Of a DNA stretch of 64,000 nucleotides, positions 13,252-28,882 are shown in pieces. The notes under the pieces were generated by a model. That model worked only from the letters and a program-made list of their open reading frames with translations, searched no databases and was not told the DNA's origin. The DNA is from Pleionea litopenaei. Lineage in GTDB: Bacteria; Pseudomonadota; Gammaproteobacteria; Enterobacterales; Kangiellaceae. Numbering within the stretch: position 1 is the first letter of the stretch; each line of letters opens with the position of its first letter. Location of the stretch: positions 1,242,501 to 1,306,500 of the forward strand of contig NZ_CP133548.1 in assembly GCF_031198435.1 (NCBI RefSeq), in the 5' to 3' direction. The position numbers and the translations under genes are program-made.

Positions 13252-14607
13252 ATGAATAACAACAAAGTCTTAATTATTGACGATGAACCCGATTTATTAA
13301 AACTTCTCAGCATCACTCTCAACCGGATGGGTATCGAGTGTGATACAGCACATAATGTTGCCTCAGCAAAAACAAAAATCGACCAAAATGATTATCGCCT
13401 CTGCCTAACTGATATGCGGCTTCCCGATGGCAATGGCTTAACACTGGTGGATTACTTTATTGAACGACAGCCAGACTCTCCGATTGCCGTTATTACAGCT
13501 CACGGAAATATGGAAACTGCAATTGAAGCCATGAAGCGTGGCGCGTTCGACTTTATTTCGAAACCGGTCGACTTGGCAAATCTTAGGGCGGTCATTAACA
13601 GTGCTTTAAATGTCTCAACGGTTCAAAGCCATTCCGACTCGAAGGCTAACCCAGGTTTATCACGATTAATTGGACAAACTCCCGAAGTTGAATCTCTCAA
13701 ACAAATTATCCTTAAAGTTGCCAAGAGCCAAGCGCCTGTTTATATCAAAGGCGAGTCTGGTACCGGTAAAGAGTTAGTCGCGAATTTAATTCATGAAAAT
13801 AGCCCAAGAAAGAGTCAACCATTCATTGCGATAAACTGTGGAGCCATACCCAATGAATTAATGGAAAGCGAGTTCTTTGGTCACAAGAAAGGAAGCTTCA
13901 CAGGTGCTTCCAGTGACAAAGAAGGCTTATTCAAAGCGGCCGATGGTGGTACTTTGTTCTTAGATGAAATCGCTGACTTGCCTATGCCAATGCAGGTTAA
14001 ATTATTGCGCGCGATTCAAGAAAGAAGCGTTCGACCAGTCGGCTCTGAAGTAGAGATACCCGTCGATGTTCGTTTGCTGTCGGCCTCTCACAAAAATCTA
14101 GCAAAGCTAGTTTCTGAGAACTTATTTCGCCAAGACTTGTTTTATCGAATCAATGTTATCGAGGTGCAGGTTCCAGCATTAAGAGATCGCTCTAAAGATA
14201 TTCCTGAGTTGGTGTCACATTTCATTAAGCAGCTTTCAAATAGAAATGATATAGAGCCACCGAAAATAGATCCTAAAGTACTAGAGACTTTAGAAAGCTA
14301 CAGCTTCCCGGGAAATATCAGAGAACTAGAAAACATCATTGAGCGAGCGATTACCTTATCGAGCGGTGAAATGATCACCGTTGACGATATCTTTCTACAC
14401 TCAGCGGCAAAAGCGCAAAGTCACGATACAGTGCAAAGCCAAAGAAAAAGTCAATCATTAGATGAGTATTTAGAAACCATAGAACGCCAAGAACTACTGA
14501 GTGCTCTTGAACAAACAAAGGGGAACAAAACCGCTGCCGCAGAGTTGTTGGGAATAAGCTTCAGAGCGATGCGTTATAAGTGCAAGAAACACCTTATCGA
14601 TGATTGA
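13252..14607 (+). CDS. pilR: PilR, sigma-54-dependent response regulator for pilin transcription
   Basis: A 451-residue NtrC-family activator. It has a receiver domain (~1–120, phosphorylated Asp54 in LTDMRLPDG), an AAA+ domain (~138–365) with Walker A GESGTGKE (~168) and the sigma-54 contact loop GSFTGA (~214) in place of the more usual GAFTGA, and a Fis-type helix-turn-helix at the end (NKTAAAELLGISFRAMRYKCKK). The ATG at 13252 is used; an in-frame TTG at 13234 would overlap pilS. Together with PilS it should activate pilA from a -24/-12 promoter elsewhere. Immediately downstream the integron cassette array begins. Confidence 0.93.
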   Translation: MNNNKVLIIDDEPDLLKLLSITLNRMGIECDTAHNVASAKTKIDQNDYRLCLTDMRLPDGNGLTLVDYFIERQPDSPIAVITAHGNMETAIEAMKRGAFDFISKPVDLANLRAVINSALNVSTVQSHSDSKANPGLSRLIGQTPEVESLKQIILKVAKSQAPVYIKGESGTGKELVANLIHENSPRKSQPFIAINCGAIPNELMESEFFGHKKGSFTGASSDKEGLFKAADGGTLFLDEIADLPMPMQVKLLRAIQERSVRPVGSEVEIPVDVRLLSASHKNLAKLVSENLFRQDLFYRINVIEVQVPALRDRSKDIPELVSHFIKQLSNRNDIEPPKIDPKVLETLESYSFPGNIRELENIIERAITLSSGEMITVDDIFLHSAAKAQSHDTVQSQRKSQSLDEYLETIERQELLSALEQTKGNKTAAAELLGISFRAMRYKCKKHLIDD

Positions 14608-14737: not shown

Positions 14738-14789
14738 GCTTAACACCTAGGCTAGGGGCCGGCGCTCTACTTCGTCCAACGCCTTAAGC
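14738..14789 (-). other. attC-like site, last of the array
   Basis: Minus strand: GCTTAAGGCGTTGG… to …GGTGTTAAGCG. The outer arms GCTTAA / TTAAGC pair, with an inner GGCG / GCGCC pairing. The next bases, GAGGGAGCAGCGAATG, would be the start of a further, truncated cassette that runs into the pilR end. Short for an attC, so less certain than the others. Confidence 0.4.
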
Positions 14790-14803
14790 TTTTTTTGGTG
14801 ACA

Positions 14804-15097
14804 CTACTCGTACTCCGATGTTTTATAACCCAAGTCCTGAATTTCCTCTCCAGAACTATTCTCAAATTTCGAGAAATGAATTTTTCCACATTTGGGACAA
14901 TTACTATTAGGCTCATCAAGTGCGCCGTAAATCGCATATTCCAAGTTGCTCGGATCCGGAAAGGTTGTTCCTACCTCATCACAAATAAGAACGATATATC
15001 CACAACTGGGGCACGATGCAAAGCATAGAGCTCCTTGCTCACTGCAGCACTCGCATCTTGGTGTAATCAAGCTAAACGATGCTGATTTTATTCCCAC
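14804..15097 (-). CDS. cassette gene: small zinc-ribbon-like protein
   Basis: A 97-residue unrecognised protein. It starts at a GTG with GAGGTGA 4–5 bases upstream. Cysteine pairs suggest a zinc site: CECC near residue 15, CPSCG (~30) and CPKCG (~72), the last two being typical zinc knuckles. It has no signal peptide. It is the last intact gene of the cassette array, followed by an attC-like palindrome. Small Cys-rich proteins of unknown role are common integron cassette contents; no specific function can be given. Confidence 0.65.
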   Translation of the reverse strand: MGIKSASFSLITPRCECCSEQGALCFASCPSCGYIVLICDEVGTTFPDPSNLEYAIYGALDEPNSNCPKCGKIHFSKFENSSGEEIQDLGYKTSEYE

Positions 15098-15145
15098 AGT
15101 TCACCTCACGCTTTTGCCACAGGCTGACTCTGCGAAGCAGTGATA

Positions 15146-15189
15146 GTCCAACGCAATTTATTATGCGGTTGTGCGCTAACTTGTTAGAT
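15146..15189 (-). other. attC-like site
   Basis: Minus strand: CTAACAAGTTAGCGC… ending GCGTTGGAC, with an inner stem CAACCGCA / TGCGTTGG. It overlaps the TAA stop of the gene at 15184–15762, as attC sites often do (TAACAA start). At 44 bp it is short, and the 3' core GTTGGAC is a normal GTTRRRY. Confidence 0.45.
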
Positions 15190-15762
15190 TGCTTCAGATA
15201 CATTGCTAGGTTTCATTTCTTGGATTTTACTAAGAGCCCACTCGACTTTTTCTGGTGAAGTTGGATGATCCTTGGGGTTACCGTCCCATTTTGGAAATAT
15301 TGCAAACTTTTTATTGTTGATATTGGCAATAAAATAGTTAACCAAAGCGCTCTGGTTGACAATCTCATAGTCGAAGTTATCAAATTTGCATCGATACTCT
15401 CCATTTAAACTACCCAAAACTAGATCGTCGCCTTCTCTGTAGAGCCCGCCAATATTTTCCGCCACAAAGCGAAACTTACCGGCTGTTTCAGGGCTTTCTA
15501 TATCGCAATATATGACAGGAGAGTCAACTTTTTTGCTGCCAGAGAAAGTTATTAGCTTATGCCCCAAAGTGATATTCAGGTCACCAAACTTCCAGAACAT
15601 AATGATGCCAATAACGCCTACTAAAATAGCTACTTTCCAATTGAAGAATGCTAATACTAATGCAATCGGAATAAGAATCATGCCTATCATTTGAAGCAGT
15701 GCAATCAACATCATTTGTGTTCTGAAATCTTTTTTATAGTATTGGTTGTGCTCTATGCTCAT
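15184..15762 (-). CDS. cassette gene: membrane protein of unknown function
   Basis: A 192-residue protein with two adjacent hydrophobic helices (~16–40 and ~42–60), then a soluble beta-rich domain of about 120 residues. The start is an ATG with AAGGAG 6 bases upstream. The topology resembles bacterial PH-domain-like or DUF-type membrane proteins (paired helices then a beta domain), but I cannot assign a family. The cassette begins with GTTAGGCG and ends at CTAACAAG, a partial match of cassette ends. It probably entered as a mobile cassette. Confidence 0.7.
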   Translation of the reverse strand: MSIEHNQYYKKDFRTQMMLIALLQMIGMILIPIALVLAFFNWKVAILVGVIGIIMFWKFGDLNITLGHKLITFSGSKKVDSPVIYCDIESPETAGKFRFVAENIGGLYREGDDLVLGSLNGEYRCKFDNFDYEIVNQSALVNYFIANINNKKFAIFPKWDGNPKDHPTSPEKVEWALSKIQEMKPSNVSEAI

Positions 15763-15786
15763 TTATTTCTCCTTGCTTTATTATTT

Positions 15787-15849
15787 CGCCTAACGTTTCG
15801 CTAAGAAGCGCTGTTGTTATCGACGTCCATTTTTGGCGCCTTGTTATAT
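15787..15849 (-). other. attC site
   Basis: Minus strand: ATATAACAAGGCGCC… with GGACGTCG, ending CGTTAGGCG. At 63 bp, with a TAACAAG 5' end and a perfect GTTAGGC 3' core, it is a normal attC. It overlaps the last 16 codons of the gene at 15801–16130, whose frame reads A-TAT-AAC through the place where a TAA stop is usual. Confidence 0.65.
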
Positions 15850-16130
15850 ATTTCTTTAGCGATGTTAGTAATCTCCACAACATCGCCTTCTTTAAAATGC
15901 ACTGAGTCTAATTCATTTTCTAGTGTAAAACTCCGGCAGTTGAACATTTGTTTGTCATCTTTATCAGTCTTTCTCGGAATGCCTATTTCTTTAACTGCTA
16001 TTCCGTTTAGCAGGTCGCCAGGTTTAAATTCAAACGTTTCACCTTCTGGATGTTCGGCAATCACAACGCTTCGCAGTCCTGTTTGTAATACGCAACGAAC
16101 CTTAAATTTTATAGAAGACGCTCCAGTCAA
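15801..16130 (-). CDS. cassette gene: small unrecognised protein running into attC
   Basis: A 109-residue soluble protein of unknown family. The best start is a TTG at 16130; no in-frame ATG with a ribosome site is seen. The sequence looks beta-rich (SIKFKVRCVL, RSVVIAEHPEGETFEFKPGDLLNGI, FKEGDVVEITNI), reminiscent of a small barrel, but this is impression only. The last ~16 residues (NKAPKMDVDNNSAS) are encoded by the attC itself, so the native stop may have been lost or the tail may be an add-on. Confidence 0.6.
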   Translation of the reverse strand: MTGASSIKFKVRCVLQTGLRSVVIAEHPEGETFEFKPGDLLNGIAVKEIGIPRKTDKDDKQMFNCRSFTLENELDSVHFKEGDVVEITNIAKEIYNKAPKMDVDNNSAS

Positions 16131-16154
16131 AACAAATTCCCTCTCATGAATAAT

Positions 16155-16214
16155 CCCTAATTCAAAAACTCAGGCTGCTGTTTAGCCTTATTTTTTGCAA
16201 TTTATTGTTATGGC
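16155..16214 (-). other. degenerate attC-like site
   Basis: Minus strand: GCCATAACAATAAATTGC… ending GAATTAGGG, with the inner stem AGGCT / AGCCT. The 5' end GCCATAAC is nearly complementary to GCTATGGGC at the start of the same cassette (16521–16529). The 3' core is ATTAGGG instead of GTTRRRY, so the site is probably decayed. Confidence 0.5.
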
Positions 16215-16513
16215 TGTTCTTCATCTGCAGCATTGAATTCCATAGTGTATTTGAGATCACGTTGCACTACCGCTACCCCATCTACATACTTTGGTTTGAA
16301 CTTCCATTTTAAAAGTGCAGCAATCGCAATTTTATCAAACACACCTTTCGGGTGAGACTCTATTATTTTTGGATTTACAGGTGCTCCTGTTTCATCTACA
16401 TCCATTATGAATTTAACATAGCCATTATCATGAGCATTGCTCGTTTCAATACTTCTTTCCGTTGAAGCGCAAGATGTTAAACATAGCAATACAATTAGTA
16501 AAAGATATTTCAT
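16208..16513 (-). CDS. cassette gene: lipoprotein with TonB C-terminal-like domain
   Basis: A 101-residue predicted lipoprotein. The ATG at 16513 gives a clean signal (MKYLLLIVLLCLTSC, lipobox LTSC); a GTG six codons upstream is less likely. The mature part, VKFIMDVDETGAPVNPKIIESHP and FDKIAIAALLKWKFKPKYVDGVAVVQRDLKYTMEF, is the beta–alpha–beta pattern of the TonB C-terminal (energy-transducing) domain, here detached from any TonB proline region. Such stand-alone TonB-C lipoproteins occur in many proteobacteria with unknown roles. It lies within the cassette array. Confidence 0.75.
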   Translation of the reverse strand: MKYLLLIVLLCLTSCASTERSIETSNAHDNGYVKFIMDVDETGAPVNPKIIESHPKGVFDKIAIAALLKWKFKPKYVDGVAVVQRDLKYTMEFNAADEEQP

Positions 16514-16521
16514 TTTTATAG

Positions 16522-16596
16522 CCCATAGCACTTGATTGAGCGGCAGAGAACGTACGTGCGAGTGAGCTACCGCGACACCAACCGCTGCTTATTTGC
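16522..16596 (-). other. attC-like site
   Basis: Minus strand: AAATAAGCAGCGGTTGG… ending CCGCTCAATCAAGTGCTATGGGC. Paired arms AGCGG / CCGCT and GCGG-AG / CT-CCGC fold the middle into an imperfect hairpin. The 3' core is GCT rather than GTT, so it is judged decayed. Confidence 0.45.
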
Positions 16597-17224
16597 TTGA
16601 ACTAACACCAAGAATTTTCTCTGAGGTCAAACATTCAATTCTGGTGTTATCCCAATCTAGTTTAAACGTGAATGATAATACTTCACTCTTCGGTTCTTTC
16701 CCCGTTCCAACTCTTCTTTTCCATAATGCTCTATGTTCTTGCATATTATCTAGATGAACTTCATCAGGCCAAGAATTTTCTCTGAAACTTCCATTTATAC
16801 TACATGTTGAAATTAGACGCTCTCTGTTAAATATGAATTCTTTCCAAACCTTAAGATCCTTACTTGCAAATAACTTGTCTCCCTTATGGCGATCACCTGC
16901 GATAAGTACATAAAGATTTTCAATTTTTAGTATTTGCTTGTTTGTATTAAATTGACAGCCAGAACATGAGGAGCTTCCAATTTTGTAATATTGACTCTCA
17001 CCGTCCGGCATTATTTCGTATTCTACATCGTAACCATAAGATTGATGATCCATCCATTCTTCACCATGAGATACTAGTGAGCCGCCGACTTCTTGGGGAA
17101 TAGTATGCTCGATAGAGCTACCGCTAAATATGAAAATAATAAAACCAACAAACGCCAGATACAAAAGAACCAGAATTACAATTGTACTTATAACGACTTT
17201 TAATAATGTACGTAACACTGGCAT
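16589..17224 (-). CDS. cassette gene: membrane-anchored protein of unknown function
   Basis: A 211-residue protein with one N-terminal transmembrane helix (~8–34) and an extracytoplasmic domain with a CSGCQ motif and several further cysteines. It has no recognised family. I use the ATG at 17224, 2 bases after the stop of the upstream gene; a TTG at 17230 overlapping that stop (TTGA) is an alternative. No attC separates it from the gene at 17227–17697, so both appear to travel as one two-gene cassette. Confidence 0.65.
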   Translation of the reverse strand: MPVLRTLLKVVISTIVILVLLYLAFVGFIIFIFSGSSIEHTIPQEVGGSLVSHGEEWMDHQSYGYDVEYEIMPDGESQYYKIGSSSCSGCQFNTNKQILKIENLYVLIAGDRHKGDKLFASKDLKVWKEFIFNRERLISTCSINGSFRENSWPDEVHLDNMQEHRALWKRRVGTGKEPKSEVLSFTFKLDWDNTRIECLTSEKILGVSSSK

Positions 17225-17226
17225 AT

Positions 17227-17697
17227 TCAATTATTCACATAACGCTTTAAGATGAGGTATGCGTGAAAATCTTTCTTACTTTCGTCGTTAAGTTTTAGTT
17301 TTTTTAACTTTTGCATCATACCTTCCACTTCCTCTGCACTAGGCCCAAACTCAATGTCGGAACCCTTCAGTTTATACCTCTCTAAAGGCCACGCAGAGCA
17401 CATGTTGACCGTCAGTTTATTCGAGTTGTCGATGAAAAGAATGTATCTAACAGCAGTACTCTTGTTTACATCACAAGAGTAACCTATACCAACAGAAACT
17501 CTCAGTTCGGATTGCAGAGGCTTTGGCCCTTTAAAGTGTTCTATTAACTCGAACTCAGCAATATTCTCGTCACGACTAAGCATATTGGCGACAAAAACAA
17601 CTTCGGAGGATTTATACAAATCGTCAATAGTCTCATCACATTGACAAGCGTTAGCCTCTATTATAATGAGTGAAAGTATAGCGAATATGTACTTCAT
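17227..17697 (-). CDS. cassette gene: secreted NTR/TIMP-like protein
   Basis: A 156-residue exported protein. After a signal peptide (~1–17, ending NA) the mature N-terminus is CQCDETIDDLYKSSEVVFVANML. A CxC at the very N-terminus followed by a 'vFvG'-type strand is the hallmark of the netrin/tissue-inhibitor-like (NTR) fold found in some bacterial secreted proteins. Two later cysteines could form disulfides. The C-terminal ~35 residues are helical and charged. It starts 5 bases after the attC-derived TTAAGT. Family assignment is tentative. Confidence 0.65.
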   Translation of the reverse strand: MKYIFAILSLIIIEANACQCDETIDDLYKSSEVVFVANMLSRDENIAEFELIEHFKGPKPLQSELRVSVGIGYSCDVNKSTAVRYILFIDNSNKLTVNMCSAWPLERYKLKGSDIEFGPSAEEVEGMMQKLKKLKLNDESKKDFHAYLILKRYVNN

Positions 17698-17702
17698 AAT
17701 TA

Positions 17703-17780
17703 ACTTAACCCTTACAACAGCCGACCAAAACCGAAACTAAGTCTACGTTTTTATGCCGACTGCTTATGATTGTTATAAGT
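17703..17780 (-). other. attC site
   Basis: Minus strand: ACTTATAACAATCATAAGC… ending GGGTTAAGT. Outer arms ACTTATAAC / GTTAAGT pair with one bulged base, and inner arms AGCAGTCGGC / GTCGGCTGTTG pair. At 78 bp, with a GTTRRRY 3' core, it is among the best attC sites here. Its 5' end is the exact complement of the first bases (GTTATAAGT) of the cassette it terminates. Confidence 0.8.
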
Positions 17781-17782
17781 GG

Positions 17783-18142
17783 TTACCACCATTTCAGCTG
17801 TAATTCCTTACGTTTTACAGGAATGTTTGGCCAAATAGTTAATGTGCTGTTATGAGTATAATACCTACCTACGAATTCCTCTGGCTTTAGTTTATCTTCA
17901 GCGATACCGACAAGTTTCTCATCGGAAACAAAATAGACTAGTATTTCGTCAGGCTCACCTTCGTACTGCTCAAAGATATTTTTTAATGTGGCATTTGCTT
18001 CATTTAAAGCCAAATGCGAAAGATCACTACAAACCACATACATTTCATCTGAAATTTCATATCCTTCAGCAACTTTGTCGCAAGTATTTGCCAATGTAAA
18101 GATAGGACAAATTGAAAGAAATAAAGCTAATACTCGACTCAT
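17783..18142 (-). CDS. cassette gene: small secreted protein of unknown function
   Basis: A 119-residue protein with a signal peptide (~1–18, FLSICPIFTLA|NTC) and two cysteines in the mature part (CDKVAEGY…VVCSDLSH). No family is recognised. The ribosome site AGGAGAG sits just inside the cassette start TTATAAGT. The predicted mature protein has a helical first half and a beta-rich, Trp-ended second half. It is bounded by two good attC sites, which makes it the clearest single-gene cassette in the array. Confidence 0.7.
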   Translation of the reverse strand: MSRVLALFLSICPIFTLANTCDKVAEGYEISDEMYVVCSDLSHLALNEANATLKNIFEQYEGEPDEILVYFVSDEKLVGIAEDKLKPEEFVGRYYTHNSTLTIWPNIPVKRKELQLKWW

Positions 18143-18150
18143 ACTCTCCT

Positions 18151-18212
18151 ACTTATAACGTTTGTAACCGTTGCGCGGGCGTTTTCGTGTCGACTGCCTG
18201 CATTTGTTAACC
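18151..18212 (-). other. attC site
   Basis: Minus strand: GGTTAACAAATGCAGGC… ending ACAAACGTTATAAGT. The inner arms GCAGGC / GCCCGC pair with one mismatch. The 5' end GGTTAAC is the exact complement of GTTAACC at the start of its own cassette (18510–18516). Length 62 bp. Confidence 0.75.
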
Positions 18213-18494
18213 CTGAATCTTAATGAAGGCATCATTTAGCTGGTAGTATCTTAATGCCTCCAACATTTGATCAGGATTTGGATTGCTAATTTGTTCGCAC
18301 AGATTCGTTTTAATCGACTGGATGTATTGAATAGTTAAAAAGTACTTCAAGTCATCAAATGTTTCACTAACGCCATCGTCTTCTATCAAAGCGACTCTAG
18401 AATCAAGTCGCATCACTCCATCAGCTACTAATAAAATACGATCCCAAGCAAAGGCATCAACTTTTTCGAAGACCTCTTTCAAATCACCTTTCAT
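18207..18494 (-). CDS. cassette gene: small acidic cytoplasmic protein
   Basis: A 95-residue protein with no signal peptide or membrane segment and no family I recognise. The sequence is acidic and mostly helical by eye (LKEVFEKVDAFAWDRILLVADGVMRLDSRVALIEDDGVSETF is its longest coherent stretch, shown here only as motif pieces LKEVFEK and DGVMRLDSR). Size and charge would fit an immunity or regulatory protein, but nothing in the sequence proves that. It lies between two matched attC sites, with the stop codon inside the downstream attC (TTAACAA). Confidence 0.6.
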   Translation of the reverse strand: MKGDLKEVFEKVDAFAWDRILLVADGVMRLDSRVALIEDDGVSETFDDLKYFLTIQYIQSIKTNLCEQISNPNPDQMLEALRYYQLNDAFIKIQG

Positions 18495-18509
18495 AGGTTG
18501 ACTCAGTTC

Positions 18510-18570
18510 GGTTAACGCCTATTCAAACGGCGCGGAGTGTTCGGCGTCCGTTTGAAAGACTTGTTAGGCG
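18510..18570 (-). other. attC site (best in the array)
   Basis: Minus strand: CGCCTAACAAGTC… ending AGGCGTTAACC. A perfect 9-bp inner stem, TTCAAACGG / CCGTTTGAA (18522–18530 and 18548–18556), and GCCTAAC / GTTAACC-type outer cores make this a textbook 61-bp attC. Confidence 0.85.
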
Positions 18571-18587
18571 ATTCAAAGTACTAAGGT

Positions 18588-18974
18588 TCAGGCCCCACAC
18601 GAGAAATAGCCCCAACGATGTTCGATCGGCAAGCACTCCATGCACAGATCTTCACCTTCGTGCGTTCCGCCATCCCAGATTATTGAGTTGTACTCGGAGT
18701 CTAAATCAATCCATAAATCTTCCTTGTTGAATCGGGCTGGATTCTTATCTCGATTGATCATGAGGTTATCGCAACGATCGCACTTCTTCGCTGACATCTT
18801 CGCCAATGGTACAAACCGGGTATCGTGATTTATGGCCTTTAAGCCGTATTTGGCTAAAAGCGCCTTCATTTCTTCATCAAGCGCTTCTAGCTTTTCATCG
18901 AAGGAACAACTCTCAATTTCTTCCGAGTTGGTTTCGAAGAAACTGTACAAGCGCCGGATCGCAAACTGTTTCAT
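18588..18974 (-). CDS. cassette gene: small Cys-pair (zinc-binding-like) protein
   Basis: A 128-residue soluble protein of unknown family. CxxC pairs CDRC (~63) and CMEC (~115), with a final SCGA, suggest a zinc site in the C-terminal half; the N-terminal half is helical and acidic. It is the first cassette gene of the array when read on the minus strand. Its cassette begins with GTTAGGTG and ends at CGCCTAAC, a match with one wobble difference. AAGGAAC precedes the ATG. Confidence 0.65.
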   Translation of the reverse strand: MKQFAIRRLYSFFETNSEEIESCSFDEKLEALDEEMKALLAKYGLKAINHDTRFVPLAKMSAKKCDRCDNLMINRDKNPARFNKEDLWIDLDSEYNSIIWDGGTHEGEDLCMECLPIEHRWGYFSCGA

Positions 18975-19432
18975 GGCTGATGTTCCTTGTTATTTCTTTC
19001 TTCACCTAACATCTTACTATGTCCTCAATGAGTGCCGAGGGACATTATTCAAAACGCCAATTACAACTGAGTTCCTCACTAAATTCAATGAGTTAGTGGA
19101 TATTATCGCAATTTCCAATTGCGTACTATGTGCACATTGACTGCAAAGTACGCAAAGCTACTAGGTTTTTCTTCAATAAATACTATCAGATAATATTTGG
19201 CTTGCTGTCTATGCGGAAAGCAGAATCGATGTTTTACTACCAGTTTAGTTAGTTCTATGCTCAGTCGGCTTGATGACTTATGAGAATGAAAAGTAAATTT
19301 AGACAACTACTGATGGCTTTTGTCTGTCAAAAAGGAGTTATTTTCTCTGACTATTTATTAAGCACTCTCTAGGTCAGTTAGCTCACTCAATAAGTTACCA
19401 TAGGTTCACCACTTAACCGCATGGACGCGAAT
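18975..19432. other. gene-poor boundary between the cassette array and fimT
   Basis: At 19009–19016 the minus strand reads GTTAGGTG, the start of the first cassette. Just outside (about 19020–19065) lies an inverted repeat ATGTCC…GGACAT that could be a decayed attC or attI. The rest shows no integrase, terminator or convincing gene. A 67-codon minus-strand frame at 19103–19306 has no ribosome site or recognisable product. The fimT promoter must lie here but is not obvious. Confidence 0.5.
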
Positions 19433-19981
19433 ATGAAGATACGAGCCTTTACTCTGCTAGAGATGCTTTTCGTTGTTTCTATCGTTGCTATTGTAAGTTT
19501 ATTGATTGCTCCAAACTTTAATAATTTAAGAGCGAAACAGCGCGTAACCGTCGAAGTTAATGCGCTATTGGGAGCTCTCAATTACGCTCGCTTATTATCA
19601 ATATCGAAAAAACGTCCGGTGACTATTTGTGGAACTTTGGATGGAACCCATTGCAGTAGAAGTTGGAGTCAAGAATACATAGTGTTTCTCGATCAAAATA
19701 ACGATGCCCAAAGAGACGAGTTTGAGACCATGGTATTCAGTCACCGTCCAAAAAAAGACTTCCTTGATATTACTTGGTCAGCCTTTGGCAGAAAAAACTA
19801 CATTCGTTATTTACCCACTGGCATCACGGCACATCACAACGGCACATTTAAACTGTGTCACCAAAAGCTCAGCCTTATCCGAGCAATTTCTATTGCTAAA
19901 AGCGGTCGAGCTCGTGCATCAAAAGATAGTGATAAAGATGGCATTCACGAGCTAGGAGAAGGAAAGCCGATAGACTGTTGA
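19433..19981 (+). CDS. FimT/GspH-type pseudopilin
   Basis: A 182-residue type IV pilin-like protein. The class III signal is MKIRA|FTLLEMLFVVSIVAIVSLLIA: a five-residue leader, then Phe+1, Glu+5 and a hydrophobic helix. Residue -1 is Ala, not the usual Gly. The C-terminal domain, with C…C pairs and DQNNDAQRD, matches the FimT/GspH fold of minor pseudopilins that prime pilus assembly or bind DNA. An upstream ATG at 19421 adds four residues but has no ribosome site. pilSR lie 4.8 kb away across the cassette array. The other minor pilin genes are absent. Confidence 0.85.
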   Translation: MKIRAFTLLEMLFVVSIVAIVSLLIAPNFNNLRAKQRVTVEVNALLGALNYARLLSISKKRPVTICGTLDGTHCSRSWSQEYIVFLDQNNDAQRDEFETMVFSHRPKKDFLDITWSAFGRKNYIRYLPTGITAHHNGTFKLCHQKLSLIRAISIAKSGRARASKDSDKDGIHELGEGKPIDC

Positions 19982-26428: not shown

Positions 26429-28882
26429 ATGTTCAACAAAAGCTCACTAAGTTTTCGACGTCATCCATTTCGAAGCAGCTTGTTGGTAGTAATATTACTC
26501 ATAATCTTGGCCATTGTATTTAACTCATTGTTGGTTCGACTCTACCTATTGCACTGGTTTGAGGCGCAAGGTGCCAAAGTTAACGTCGACGACATCACTT
26601 TGTCACTTTGGAACGCCACGTTTACTCTCGATAATCTAGAAACTTCGCAAAATAATCAGTCGCTTAATGTCGAACGTTTAGAACTCGCATGGCAATGGCA
26701 GCCGCTGCTTGAAAACCACTTGATCATTGACCGTGTCGTCGTCGAAGGGTTAACACTGGATATTGATGCTACGGATCAAAGCGCTCTTGTGATAGGCAGC
26801 TTAGCAAGCACTCAACCACAAAACTCTCAAGCTGCCGTTACGACCGAAGCTTCAACCAATACTCCTTGGCAAATAACGCTACATGAGCTGGGCATTGACT
26901 ATGATCAGGTATGCGTCAAGCTACCTGAGTCAGCGCTACAGCAAATGCCGAAAAATTACTTGGGGACTTCAGAAACCGGCGAACTTTGTATTGACCAAAC
27001 GATGAACTTCAAAGGTTTAGCCAAAGCTACCTTGGCAGATAAGCTTGCTCTCTCGATGCAAGGTAATCTAGCATGGCACGATGTTCAATTTCAGTTAAAT
27101 CAAAACACTTTTTTCAGCACTGACAAGTTCGCACTCAATGGCTTAACTTATTCCGAACAAACGCTCAAGAGTTCGTCCCTCGAATTTACCAACCTTTTGA
27201 TTAGCGAGCCACAAAAAGAGAAGGCACTTAACGCTCAACTTGGGCAATTTAAATTGGTCGATCTCCACTTGTTATTTGGTGAGCAAAAAATTGCATTTGA
27301 ACAGTTGGATGCTACTGACTTTTCCTTTTTAAAAAACAACATTCAAGATTCCAATGCGCTGTTAAACTTTTCCAATTTCGCCATTCAACAATTTCAACAC
27401 GACCTTAAGAATACTTCGATGGCGTCTTTTTCGCTGCAAGAACTGGCATTTGTGCAGGTCGATGCTGATGGTCAGACAACGTGGCAACAACTCTTATCGT
27501 CGACCAAACACATTTCACCACCCAACTATCTTACACAACTAAAAGATTTTAGGGCGACAGGTATAAGCATGAATGACGATGAGCTGTCGAATAAAAGTTA
27601 CTTGAAATTCGATCAGATCAAACTCTCTGATTTACAGCAGTATCTTAATTTAAACGAACAGGGCAAGACTGCCTATCATACGGCTTTTGAAGGATTGTTT
27701 TTTGAAAATTCAGCGTTGGAAAGTTCTGCTACTAAAGAGCCTTCTTCTGAGGAGTCTGTTTCTGAAAGTTCTGTTTCTCAAAGATCTGACTCAAGCGTAC
27801 AAAAGCGGTCTGCAGACCAATCAAATGAGACACAAGAACCCACAAGCTCAGCAACAAGCTCGCCTCTGATCGTCGAGGTGTCGGAGTTTTTGCTCGACGG
27901 GAATTCATACGTCATTTTCAATGATGCACACTATCGCCTTAAACATCCGATAGTCGTTAGCGGCATGGAAAGTCGTCTATCAGATTTCAACACACTCAAT
28001 CGACCCATCGATATTTATTATCACGCCTCGATAAATGATACCGGTGATACCGAACTCACAGGGCAGATTGCAATCAATGGGTCTCAATTGAGTACTGACT
28101 TAAAGCTTCGAGTTTCCGATTTAGATTTAGTGCCCTTCTCTCCTTATTCGGCTCGGTTTGTAGGCTACCGAGTTGAGCGCGGCCAGCTAAACCTAAACTC
28201 CAATATCAAGCTTAAAGACCAACTTATGGATAGCGAATTTGACTTTGTGTTAAACAAGCTTGATCTAGAAGATACAGAAGAGCACGAGCATCATGAGCTC
28301 AACCAAGATCTTGGCGTTCCACTACCCACAGCGTTGAGTTTATTGAAAAACAGTGATGATAAAATTGAATTAAACATTCCGTTAGAAGGTCCTATCAATG
28401 AATTAAATACATCGATAGGCGATGTCATTTCAACCATCTCTATCAAAGCGATAAAAACCGCCGTACTTTATCAATATACGCCGTTTGGGCTGCTGATTCT
28501 GGCCGATGGAATAATAGACTTAGGGGCAGGATTGACTTTCGAACCCTTGGTTTTTGAACCTGGCTCGATAACCCTGACAAACTCACATCGAGAACAATTA
28601 GCGACACTGGCCAAGTTAACGCAGCAGAAACCAAACATTTCGTTGGTACTCTGTGGCATGGTCGCCCAGGCAGACCTGATGCAACCCGACTCAAAAGAAC
28701 CGCCTGCACCATTGACGGAGGAACAGAGAGACCGTTTGATAAACTTAGCTAAACAGCGCCAGTCTCTCGTGTTGAGTACCTTAATCGGCGAATTTGAAGT
28801 CAACAAAGGCCAATTATTAACTTGTAACCCAAGTGCAAAAAATGCGTTAAAAAATGTGCCAGAAGTGCAGGTTACGCTATAG
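26429..28882 (+). CDS. DUF748 (AsmA-like) large envelope protein
   Basis: An 817-residue protein. I start it at the ATG at 26429 because AGGGAA lies 8 bases upstream; the ATG at 26405 has no such site. An N-terminal transmembrane helix (~14–35) anchors a large periplasmic beta-rich domain related to AsmA/DUF748 proteins, which are thought to span the periplasm and move or organise lipids. A Ser-rich linker (~425–475) interrupts the domain. The C-terminus, FEPGSITLTNSHREQLATLAKLTQ…LCGMV, looks OmpA-like. Paired DUF748 motifs VPFSPYSARFVGYRVERGQL and IDLGAGLTFEPLVFEPGS are visible. Confidence 0.82.
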   Translation: MFNKSSLSFRRHPFRSSLLVVILLIILAIVFNSLLVRLYLLHWFEAQGAKVNVDDITLSLWNATFTLDNLETSQNNQSLNVERLELAWQWQPLLENHLIIDRVVVEGLTLDIDATDQSALVIGSLASTQPQNSQAAVTTEASTNTPWQITLHELGIDYDQVCVKLPESALQQMPKNYLGTSETGELCIDQTMNFKGLAKATLADKLALSMQGNLAWHDVQFQLNQNTFFSTDKFALNGLTYSEQTLKSSSLEFTNLLISEPQKEKALNAQLGQFKLVDLHLLFGEQKIAFEQLDATDFSFLKNNIQDSNALLNFSNFAIQQFQHDLKNTSMASFSLQELAFVQVDADGQTTWQQLLSSTKHISPPNYLTQLKDFRATGISMNDDELSNKSYLKFDQIKLSDLQQYLNLNEQGKTAYHTAFEGLFFENSALESSATKEPSSEESVSESSVSQRSDSSVQKRSADQSNETQEPTSSATSSPLIVEVSEFLLDGNSYVIFNDAHYRLKHPIVVSGMESRLSDFNTLNRPIDIYYHASINDTGDTELTGQIAINGSQLSTDLKLRVSDLDLVPFSPYSARFVGYRVERGQLNLNSNIKLKDQLMDSEFDFVLNKLDLEDTEEHEHHELNQDLGVPLPTALSLLKNSDDKIELNIPLEGPINELNTSIGDVISTISIKAIKTAVLYQYTPFGLLILADGIIDLGAGLTFEPLVFEPGSITLTNSHREQLATLAKLTQQKPNISLVLCGMVAQADLMQPDSKEPPAPLTEEQRDRLINLAKQRQSLVLSTLIGEFEVNKGQLLTCNPSAKNALKNVPEVQVTL

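Follow-up and report, generated by a model that had tools for sequence, protein, structure and literature searches.

Between pilR and a fimT-like gene on the chromosome of Pleionea litopenaei stand nine small genes that raise two questions, namely what kind of element they form and how it came to be there. We studied them in a 64 kb stretch of the chromosome, called the window throughout, to which all plain base coordinates refer. The array is read on the minus strand. Its nine open reading frames (ORFs) encode proteins of 95-213 amino acids (aa), lie at 14804-18974 and are separated by gaps of -4 to 93 bp, in line with the initial annotation, which had described small co-oriented genes with very short gaps. 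All nine ORFs and all seven attC sites recognized among them share the minus strand. The locus is a real integrase-less integron cassette array (CALIN), partly decayed, and the array is an insertion in this lineage.

The first answer comes from the attC sites. We searched the whole 64 kb on both strands and with filters off using the attC covariance model R1, which was trained on 25 sites: 13 from the two intI-bearing integrons of the same genome, 12 from relatives and none from the window. The attC fold covaries in the training set, with 85.7% of the cells paired compared to 66.3% in shuffles and 28-42% with the partners slid; because conserved ends served to pick the sites, the invariance of these ends is partly a selection effect. 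The seven best matches of the 64 kb were without exception minus-strand sites within the array and occupied seven of the eight gene junctions. The features are as follows, in the order in which the array is read.

14804..19010, minus strand, cassette array (CALIN), reaching from where the first cassette begins to where the last gene ends; seven attC matches in register with nine ORFs
19004..19010, minus strand, GTTAGGT, probably the left boundary of the first cassette (by eye; fits the partner box of attC 18510-18569)
18588..18974, minus strand, gene 1, 128 aa, Cys-rich, no family above the cut-off (weak match to phrog_2670, E 0.001)
18510..18569, minus strand, attC 1, canonical and best preserved (R1 41.5 bits, E 1.7e-7)
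18207..18494, minus strand, gene 2, 95 aa, DUF7716 (Pfam PF24832, E 2.1e-14)
18153..18212, minus strand, attC 2, degenerate (R1 21.2 bits, E 0.011)
17783..18142, minus strand, gene 3, 119 aa, N-terminus resembling a signal peptide by eye, no family assigned (ORF list, Pfam)
17703..17778, minus strand, attC 3, degenerate (R1 21.5 bits, E 0.009)
17227..17697, minus strand, gene 4, 156 aa, secreted-like with a CxC motif, no substantial match in Pfam, NCBIfam or PDB
17237..17293, minus strand, attC 4, degenerate, overlapping the 3' end of gene 4 (R1 19.9 bits, E 0.022)
16589..17230, minus strand, gene 5, 213 aa, resembling a membrane-anchored protein by eye, no family assigned (ORF list, Pfam)
16532..16588, no strand, junction of genes 5 and 6, no attC match (R1 search)
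16208..16531, minus strand, gene 6, 107 aa, lipoprotein-like, TonB C-terminal domain (Pfam PF03544, E 3.6e-10; NCBIfam agrees)
16148..16213, minus strand, attC 5, degenerate (R1 17.5 bits, E 0.082)
15801..16130, minus strand, gene 7, 109 aa, no family assigned (ORF list, Pfam)
15788..15849, minus strand, attC 6, overlapping the 3' end of gene 7 (R1 27.8 bits, E 2.9e-4)
15184..15762, minus strand, gene 8, 192 aa, membrane protein as judged by eye, no family assigned (ORF list, Pfam)
15103..15189, minus strand, attC 7, GTT of the right box altered (R1 27.3 bits, E 3.9e-4)
14804..15097, minus strand, gene 9, 97 aa, paired Cys motifs resembling a zinc ribbon by eye (ORF list, Pfam)
13252..14607, plus strand, pilR, left flank (synteny in 16 of 16 relatives examined)
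19421..19981, plus strand, fimT-like (GspH), right flank (Pfam GspH, E 1.7e-14)

As graded by R1, which is not IntegronFinder's own model, one attC is canonical (41.5 bits) and six are weak (17.5-27.8 bits). The site at 18510-18569 breaks none of the 12 model pairs and shows the R and L boxes, the unpaired spacer and the extrahelical base; in each of the six weaker sites between zero and four pairs are broken, and one of these sites was matched with its centre skipped. A strict pattern derived from the best site, and thus chosen after the site had been seen, occurred once in the window and in none of 100 shuffles. A hand-written palindrome scorer and, likewise, a loose pattern failed to separate signal from noise, with 41 matches in the window and 41 in the reversed control, and were dropped for the covariance model. 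The initial annotation had reported attC-type palindromes between most of the genes. This holds for seven of the eight junctions, whereas R1 found no match in the gap between genes 5 and 6 (16532-16588), in the distal palindrome at 14738-14803 or at 19004-19098. Could the locus then be no integron array at all but a common gene cluster, with hairpins between its small genes that look like attC by coincidence? One junction has no site, and four of the six weak sites (17.5-21.5 bits) lie at most 5 bits above the best false match, which scored 17.0 bits at 27226 inside an unrelated gene and was the next-best match in the window. These four gain credit from their position in gene junctions. The seven best matches of 64 kb would in addition have to collect by chance in one array, on one strand and in register with the genes, with one of them at E 1.7e-7, and no R1 match at E up to 10 (default filters) was seen in 50 kb taken from elsewhere on the chromosome. 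We therefore give this explanation almost no credence. The array sites score above background, three of the seven have E < 0.001 in the 64 kb, where two attC are the minimum for a CALIN, and no intI lies nearby, so the assignment as an integrase-less cassette array stands.

The second question concerns the site. The gap between pilR and fimT measures 4,813 bp in P. litopenaei compared to 101-389 bp, measured between tblastn ends, in all 16 relatives examined (16 fimT surroundings were fetched from the 40 relatives searched with FimT). All 16 have pilS, pilR and fimT side by side, 15 of them with thiI next, and a search of these loci with the nine array proteins gave no match at E up to 1e-5. 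The initial annotation had pointed to a comparison of this interval in relatives as a way to see insertion, and it is uninterrupted in each of them. The intergenic flanks are too diverged from those of the relatives for a base-by-base alignment of the junctions, and an empty site at base level was not shown. We also searched 369 Gammaproteobacteria, P. litopenaei included, with the nine proteins joined into one query. Matches were found in 45 genomes, its own among them, and outside its own genome all listed matches (with at most two candidates scored per genome) were over the TonB domain. The nine genes thus look unlike an old conserved operon, and their order was not found conserved elsewhere.

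How the array arose has to be judged against the rest of the genome. The statement that no intI or attI is visible is correct locally but not genome-wide. Two intI exceeded the TIGR02249 cut-off, at C1:1007984 (424 bits) and C1:1999013 (391 bits), roughly 248 and 737 kb from the window array, and both stand beside cassettes with readable attC. In integron A (1.007 Mb) the gene appears to be intact. In integron B (1.987-1.999 Mb) it is broken by an insertion sequence (L011:3993-6100), which is 99.9% identical over 1,208 bp to a copy at 0.372 Mb (L150:11739-12946), and because of this identity the interruption looks recent. The 3' parts of the two intI (L009:4731-4862 and L011:4766-4897) agree at 124 of 132 positions, whereas identity over a 738-base stretch that takes in most of the genes is 76%, a contrast suggestive of recent gene conversion. 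A whole-genome R1 search returned 30 matches at E up to 10; 150 of 869 initial candidates were scored, so the counts are lower bounds. Together with further stretches fetched from the chromosome and the end profiles described below we count eleven loci: integrons A and B, the window array (1.257-1.261 Mb) and the following.

Near 0.095, 0.364, 1.388, 1.451, 1.669, 1.708, 3.389 and 4.091 Mb, eight other arrays or remnants (R1, end profiles)

Nine of the eleven have no intI. The remnant at 1.388 Mb is based on one R1 match (21.0 bits), an attI and a distal end; that at 1.451 Mb, which has no R1 match, is based on a single small ORF and a distal end that is conserved. A match at 4.251 Mb was dropped as it sits inside a gene, and a genome-wide scan with a short attC pattern revealed no new clusters (14 and 18 matches compared to 11 and 10 in the control).

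In eight of the arrays, A and B included, a common attI motif stands directly before the first cassette. The eight sites score 29-40 with an attI matrix built from them, and 20-37 when left out of it, compared to 14.3 for the best chance match in 976 kb of scanned strands. Of six intI-bearing loci of relatives that had not gone into the matrix, four yielded an attI (31.8-37.9 bits) and L069 yielded none, while L070 starts at intI itself, so that an attI could not show. Six arrays without intI keep an attI, at 0.095, 0.364, 1.388, 1.669, 3.389 and 4.091 Mb.

L150:6006-6035, L149:4877-4906, L155:3394-3423, L154:3895-3924, L152:9392-9421 and L151:6200-6229, six orphan attI-like sites

A fragment of intI of about 47 codons remains beside the array at 1.669 Mb. 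The matrix found no attI at the window array or at 1.451 and 1.708 Mb. Two further platform parts are conserved. The sequence after the last attC is common to A, B and the loci at 0.364, 1.388, 1.451, 1.669 and 4.091 Mb, and the sequence outside intI or attI is common to A, B and those at 1.669, 3.389 and 4.091 Mb. These conserved outer ends suggest that whole platforms may once have been mobile or spread as units. The post-attC ends span about 108-138 bp (L009:3041-3166, L016:11692-11829, L150:8204-8328, L151:5154-5279, L152:4497-4607, L155:6177-6309 and L158:6920-7027); as terminal inverted repeats they are unsupported (best E 0.096, other six 0.36-0.73). By the end profiles the window array has neither platform end. 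In the family, attC matches (E up to 0.001) were found in 36 of 40 genomes including that of P. litopenaei, compared to intI (E up to 1e-40) in 21 of 40, and five intI-less arrays of relatives (L163, L167, L169, L170 and L199) carry the attI motif at 26.9-35.0 bits. The draft genome G004, with attI before an intI-less array, gave no intI at E up to 1e-40.

Our preferred reading, which we consider probable, is that the window array is the decaying relic of a former integron that lost intI and attI. An integron platform would once have stood between pilR and fimT, where cassettes would have been captured singly by attI x attC recombination, and a later deletion of intI and attI would have frozen the array. 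The reading is supported by the attC matches in seven of the eight junctions, by the uninterrupted pilR-fimT interval of the 16 relatives, by the replication-aligned orientation of all eleven loci described below and by other arrays of the genome, which show the path half-way: attI without intI, an intI fragment and an intI broken by an insertion sequence. Several results weigh against it. Searches of the array's flanks for intI remnants and integron ends found neither. The best attI matrix score in 18975-19420, before the first cassette, was -2.0, with the limit that the matrix would miss an attI of another type; an attI suspected by eye at 19004 was likewise rejected by the matrix. Of the parts of a complete integron the locus thus has neither an intI in cis nor, by the matrix, an attI, so that an intI-bearing ancestor at the pilR-fimT site is at most probable. 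Compared with the other arrays of the genome, the nine window proteins gave no blastp match at E 0.01. Finally, in relatives the median attC score is 36.5 bits in intI-less arrays (n=66) and 35.4 bits beside intI (n=26; p 0.64), so that weak attC are not a simple consequence of lacking intI in cis.

The same comparison shows how far the window array has decayed. It was restricted to sites above ~21.8 bits and used 92 of 182 matches, excluding the loci used for training, those with a single match, short contigs and L166. The other intI-less arrays of the genome have a median of 30.7 bits (n=18), lower than the intI-less arrays of relatives (p 0.0015), and the window array has 27.8 bits over its three sites above the limit and 21.5 bits over all seven. 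With 27.8 compared to 30.7 bits, and with the array at 3.389 Mb at a median near 19 bits over 12 matches, the window array does not rank among the most decayed. Its attC decay is typical of this genome.

The lack of any attI, integron end or intI remnant at the window array, unlike at six other arrays, is what would be seen if the array never had an integrase of its own. A remote IntI would then have placed a cassette excised elsewhere at a chromosomal site other than attI (attG) between pilR and fimT, with later cassettes added at its attC or at neighbouring sites. An apparently intact IntI is present in the genome, and integration at attG has been reported (Loot 2024, as cited in the excerpted text of PMC12444791 and PMC11023631). 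We nevertheless regard this origin as doubtful. No cassette of the window array clearly recurs in the intI-bearing arrays; across all other arrays three weak phmmer matches (E 0.005-0.04) and no clear relative were found. Furthermore, the non-cassette DNA between pilR and fimT amounts to ~540-610 bp compared to 101-389 bp in relatives, which suggests more than a clean insertion. A third origin, in which the array was split from another one by a chromosomal rearrangement or an insertion-sequence event and then relocated, draws on the IS110-, IS3- and IS481-like elements (family names by eye) in or beside other arrays. No transposase was seen by eye among the ORFs of the window array and its flanks, and the order pilS, pilR, fimT, thiI, lexA is kept around it, which makes relocation very improbable.

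Such an array need not be inert. The canonical attC at 18510-18569 may still recombine in trans through the IntI of integron A, which appears to be intact and lies about 248 kb away, and single genes of the array may still serve if transcribed. A remote IntI could also still insert cassettes at the orphan attI-like sites. A wider proposal for Pleionea and its family is a distributed integron, in which one apparently intact integrase serves many intI-less attI platforms in trans and the window array is a spent platform; we consider this rather unlikely. If it were true, about ten sites would serve to store and reshuffle cassettes, which would be kept in a replication-aligned orientation that limits their loss.

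This orientation was observed at all eleven loci of the genome: each array or remnant is aligned with replication, so that the bottom strand of attC lies on the leading-strand template. The pattern, one direction per half of the contig, was noticed first and led to the expectation of an origin at 2.5-3.0 Mb and a terminus at 0.5-0.9 Mb; dnaA lies at 2.777 Mb and a single dif-like site at 0.689 Mb. The GC skew fits the replication map in the window and at each of 22 loci of this genome. For the relatives we fetched 40 loci and tested 30, the other ten being on contigs of only 3.2-8.3 kb, and L166 was dropped for lack of flank. Judged by the GC skew of the flanks, 22 of the 29 arrays ran with replication (one-sided binomial p 0.004), as did 19 of the 25 with more than one site; the flanks start 1.5 kb from the outermost matches, and unrecognized cassettes there could favour agreement. 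By genus the agreement was 7/7 (g1), 5/5 (g3), 0/1 (g4) and 10/16 (g5). The seven exceptions are L171 (g4, genome G007) and L174, L175, L176, L178, L185 and L197 (g5), with a skew near zero in L176. We counted L195 as agreeing on its plus-strand matches and left out a minus-strand match (33.1 bits) that would disagree. The orientation rule is already known: the excerpted text of PMC5371416 gives replication-aligned orientation for 25 of 30 sedentary integrons, and according to that of PMC11023631 inversion raises excision in Vibrio cholerae. What is added here is its hold on many intI-less arrays of one genome. By analogy with such experiments on other integrons, in which the replication-aligned orientation lowers excision, it would favour the persistence of a relic.

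The window array shares with the CALINs of IntegronFinder 2.0 (PMC9024848) at least two attC, short co-oriented and mostly unassigned genes, the lack of a nearby intI and the chromosomal location; it differs in that six of its seven attC are degenerate by R1, IntegronFinder's own model not having been used. With the sedentary chromosomal integrons of the Vibrio type it has in common the build of attC, the replication-aligned orientation and a store of unassigned genes, but it comprises nine genes only and has no intI or attI in cis, and this genome, instead of a single large array, holds about eleven arrays or remnants. A parallel in layout is Xanthomonas, where CALINs were reported at seven loci away from intI (PMC12444791, excerpted text) and intI-less arrays are likewise found at several chromosomal loci. 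In P. litopenaei, however, six of the nine intI-less arrays or remnants keep attI and several keep conserved integron ends; the excerpt on Xanthomonas reports the positions of the CALINs and does not mention attI at them. In a search covering part of the literature we found no work on Pleionea and integrons, and for Kangiella only co-mentions on subjects unrelated by title. The single array adds nine mostly unassigned cassette genes to a well-known class and is an ordinary element in an unusual genome. Stages of decay can be read there side by side: an apparently intact IntI, one broken by an insertion sequence, a fragment, attI only, and nothing. The origin of CALINs and continued cassette exchange in trans thereby become directly testable in one marine family.

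As for the genes themselves, only two of the nine reached a curated family, gene 2 (DUF7716) and gene 6, for which the annotated TonB-C lipoprotein agrees with the TonB C-terminal domain found. The zinc ribbon proposed for gene 9 remained below cut-off support (Pfam E 0.15), with the paired Cys motifs visible. The NTR-like label of gene 4 was not confirmed by Pfam, NCBIfam, PDB or a single-sequence structure model, which was unusable (mean predicted local distance difference test score, pLDDT, 38.4). PADLOC and PHROGs scans of the array genes gave no firm function, plasmid and phage DNA gave no match, and an Rfam scan of the window gave one tRNA and nothing else. Consensus promoters in the array were no more frequent than by chance (5 found, 12.5 expected). 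The protein of gene 4 is weakly similar to a cassette protein of the array at 3.389 Mb (phmmer E 0.005, 96 ORFs). Among the other arrays, two that lie ~1.3 Mb apart carry cassettes for proteins with 69% identity across 183 aa (L150:7404-7955 and L152:8366-8923), and a shorter relative is present in integron B.

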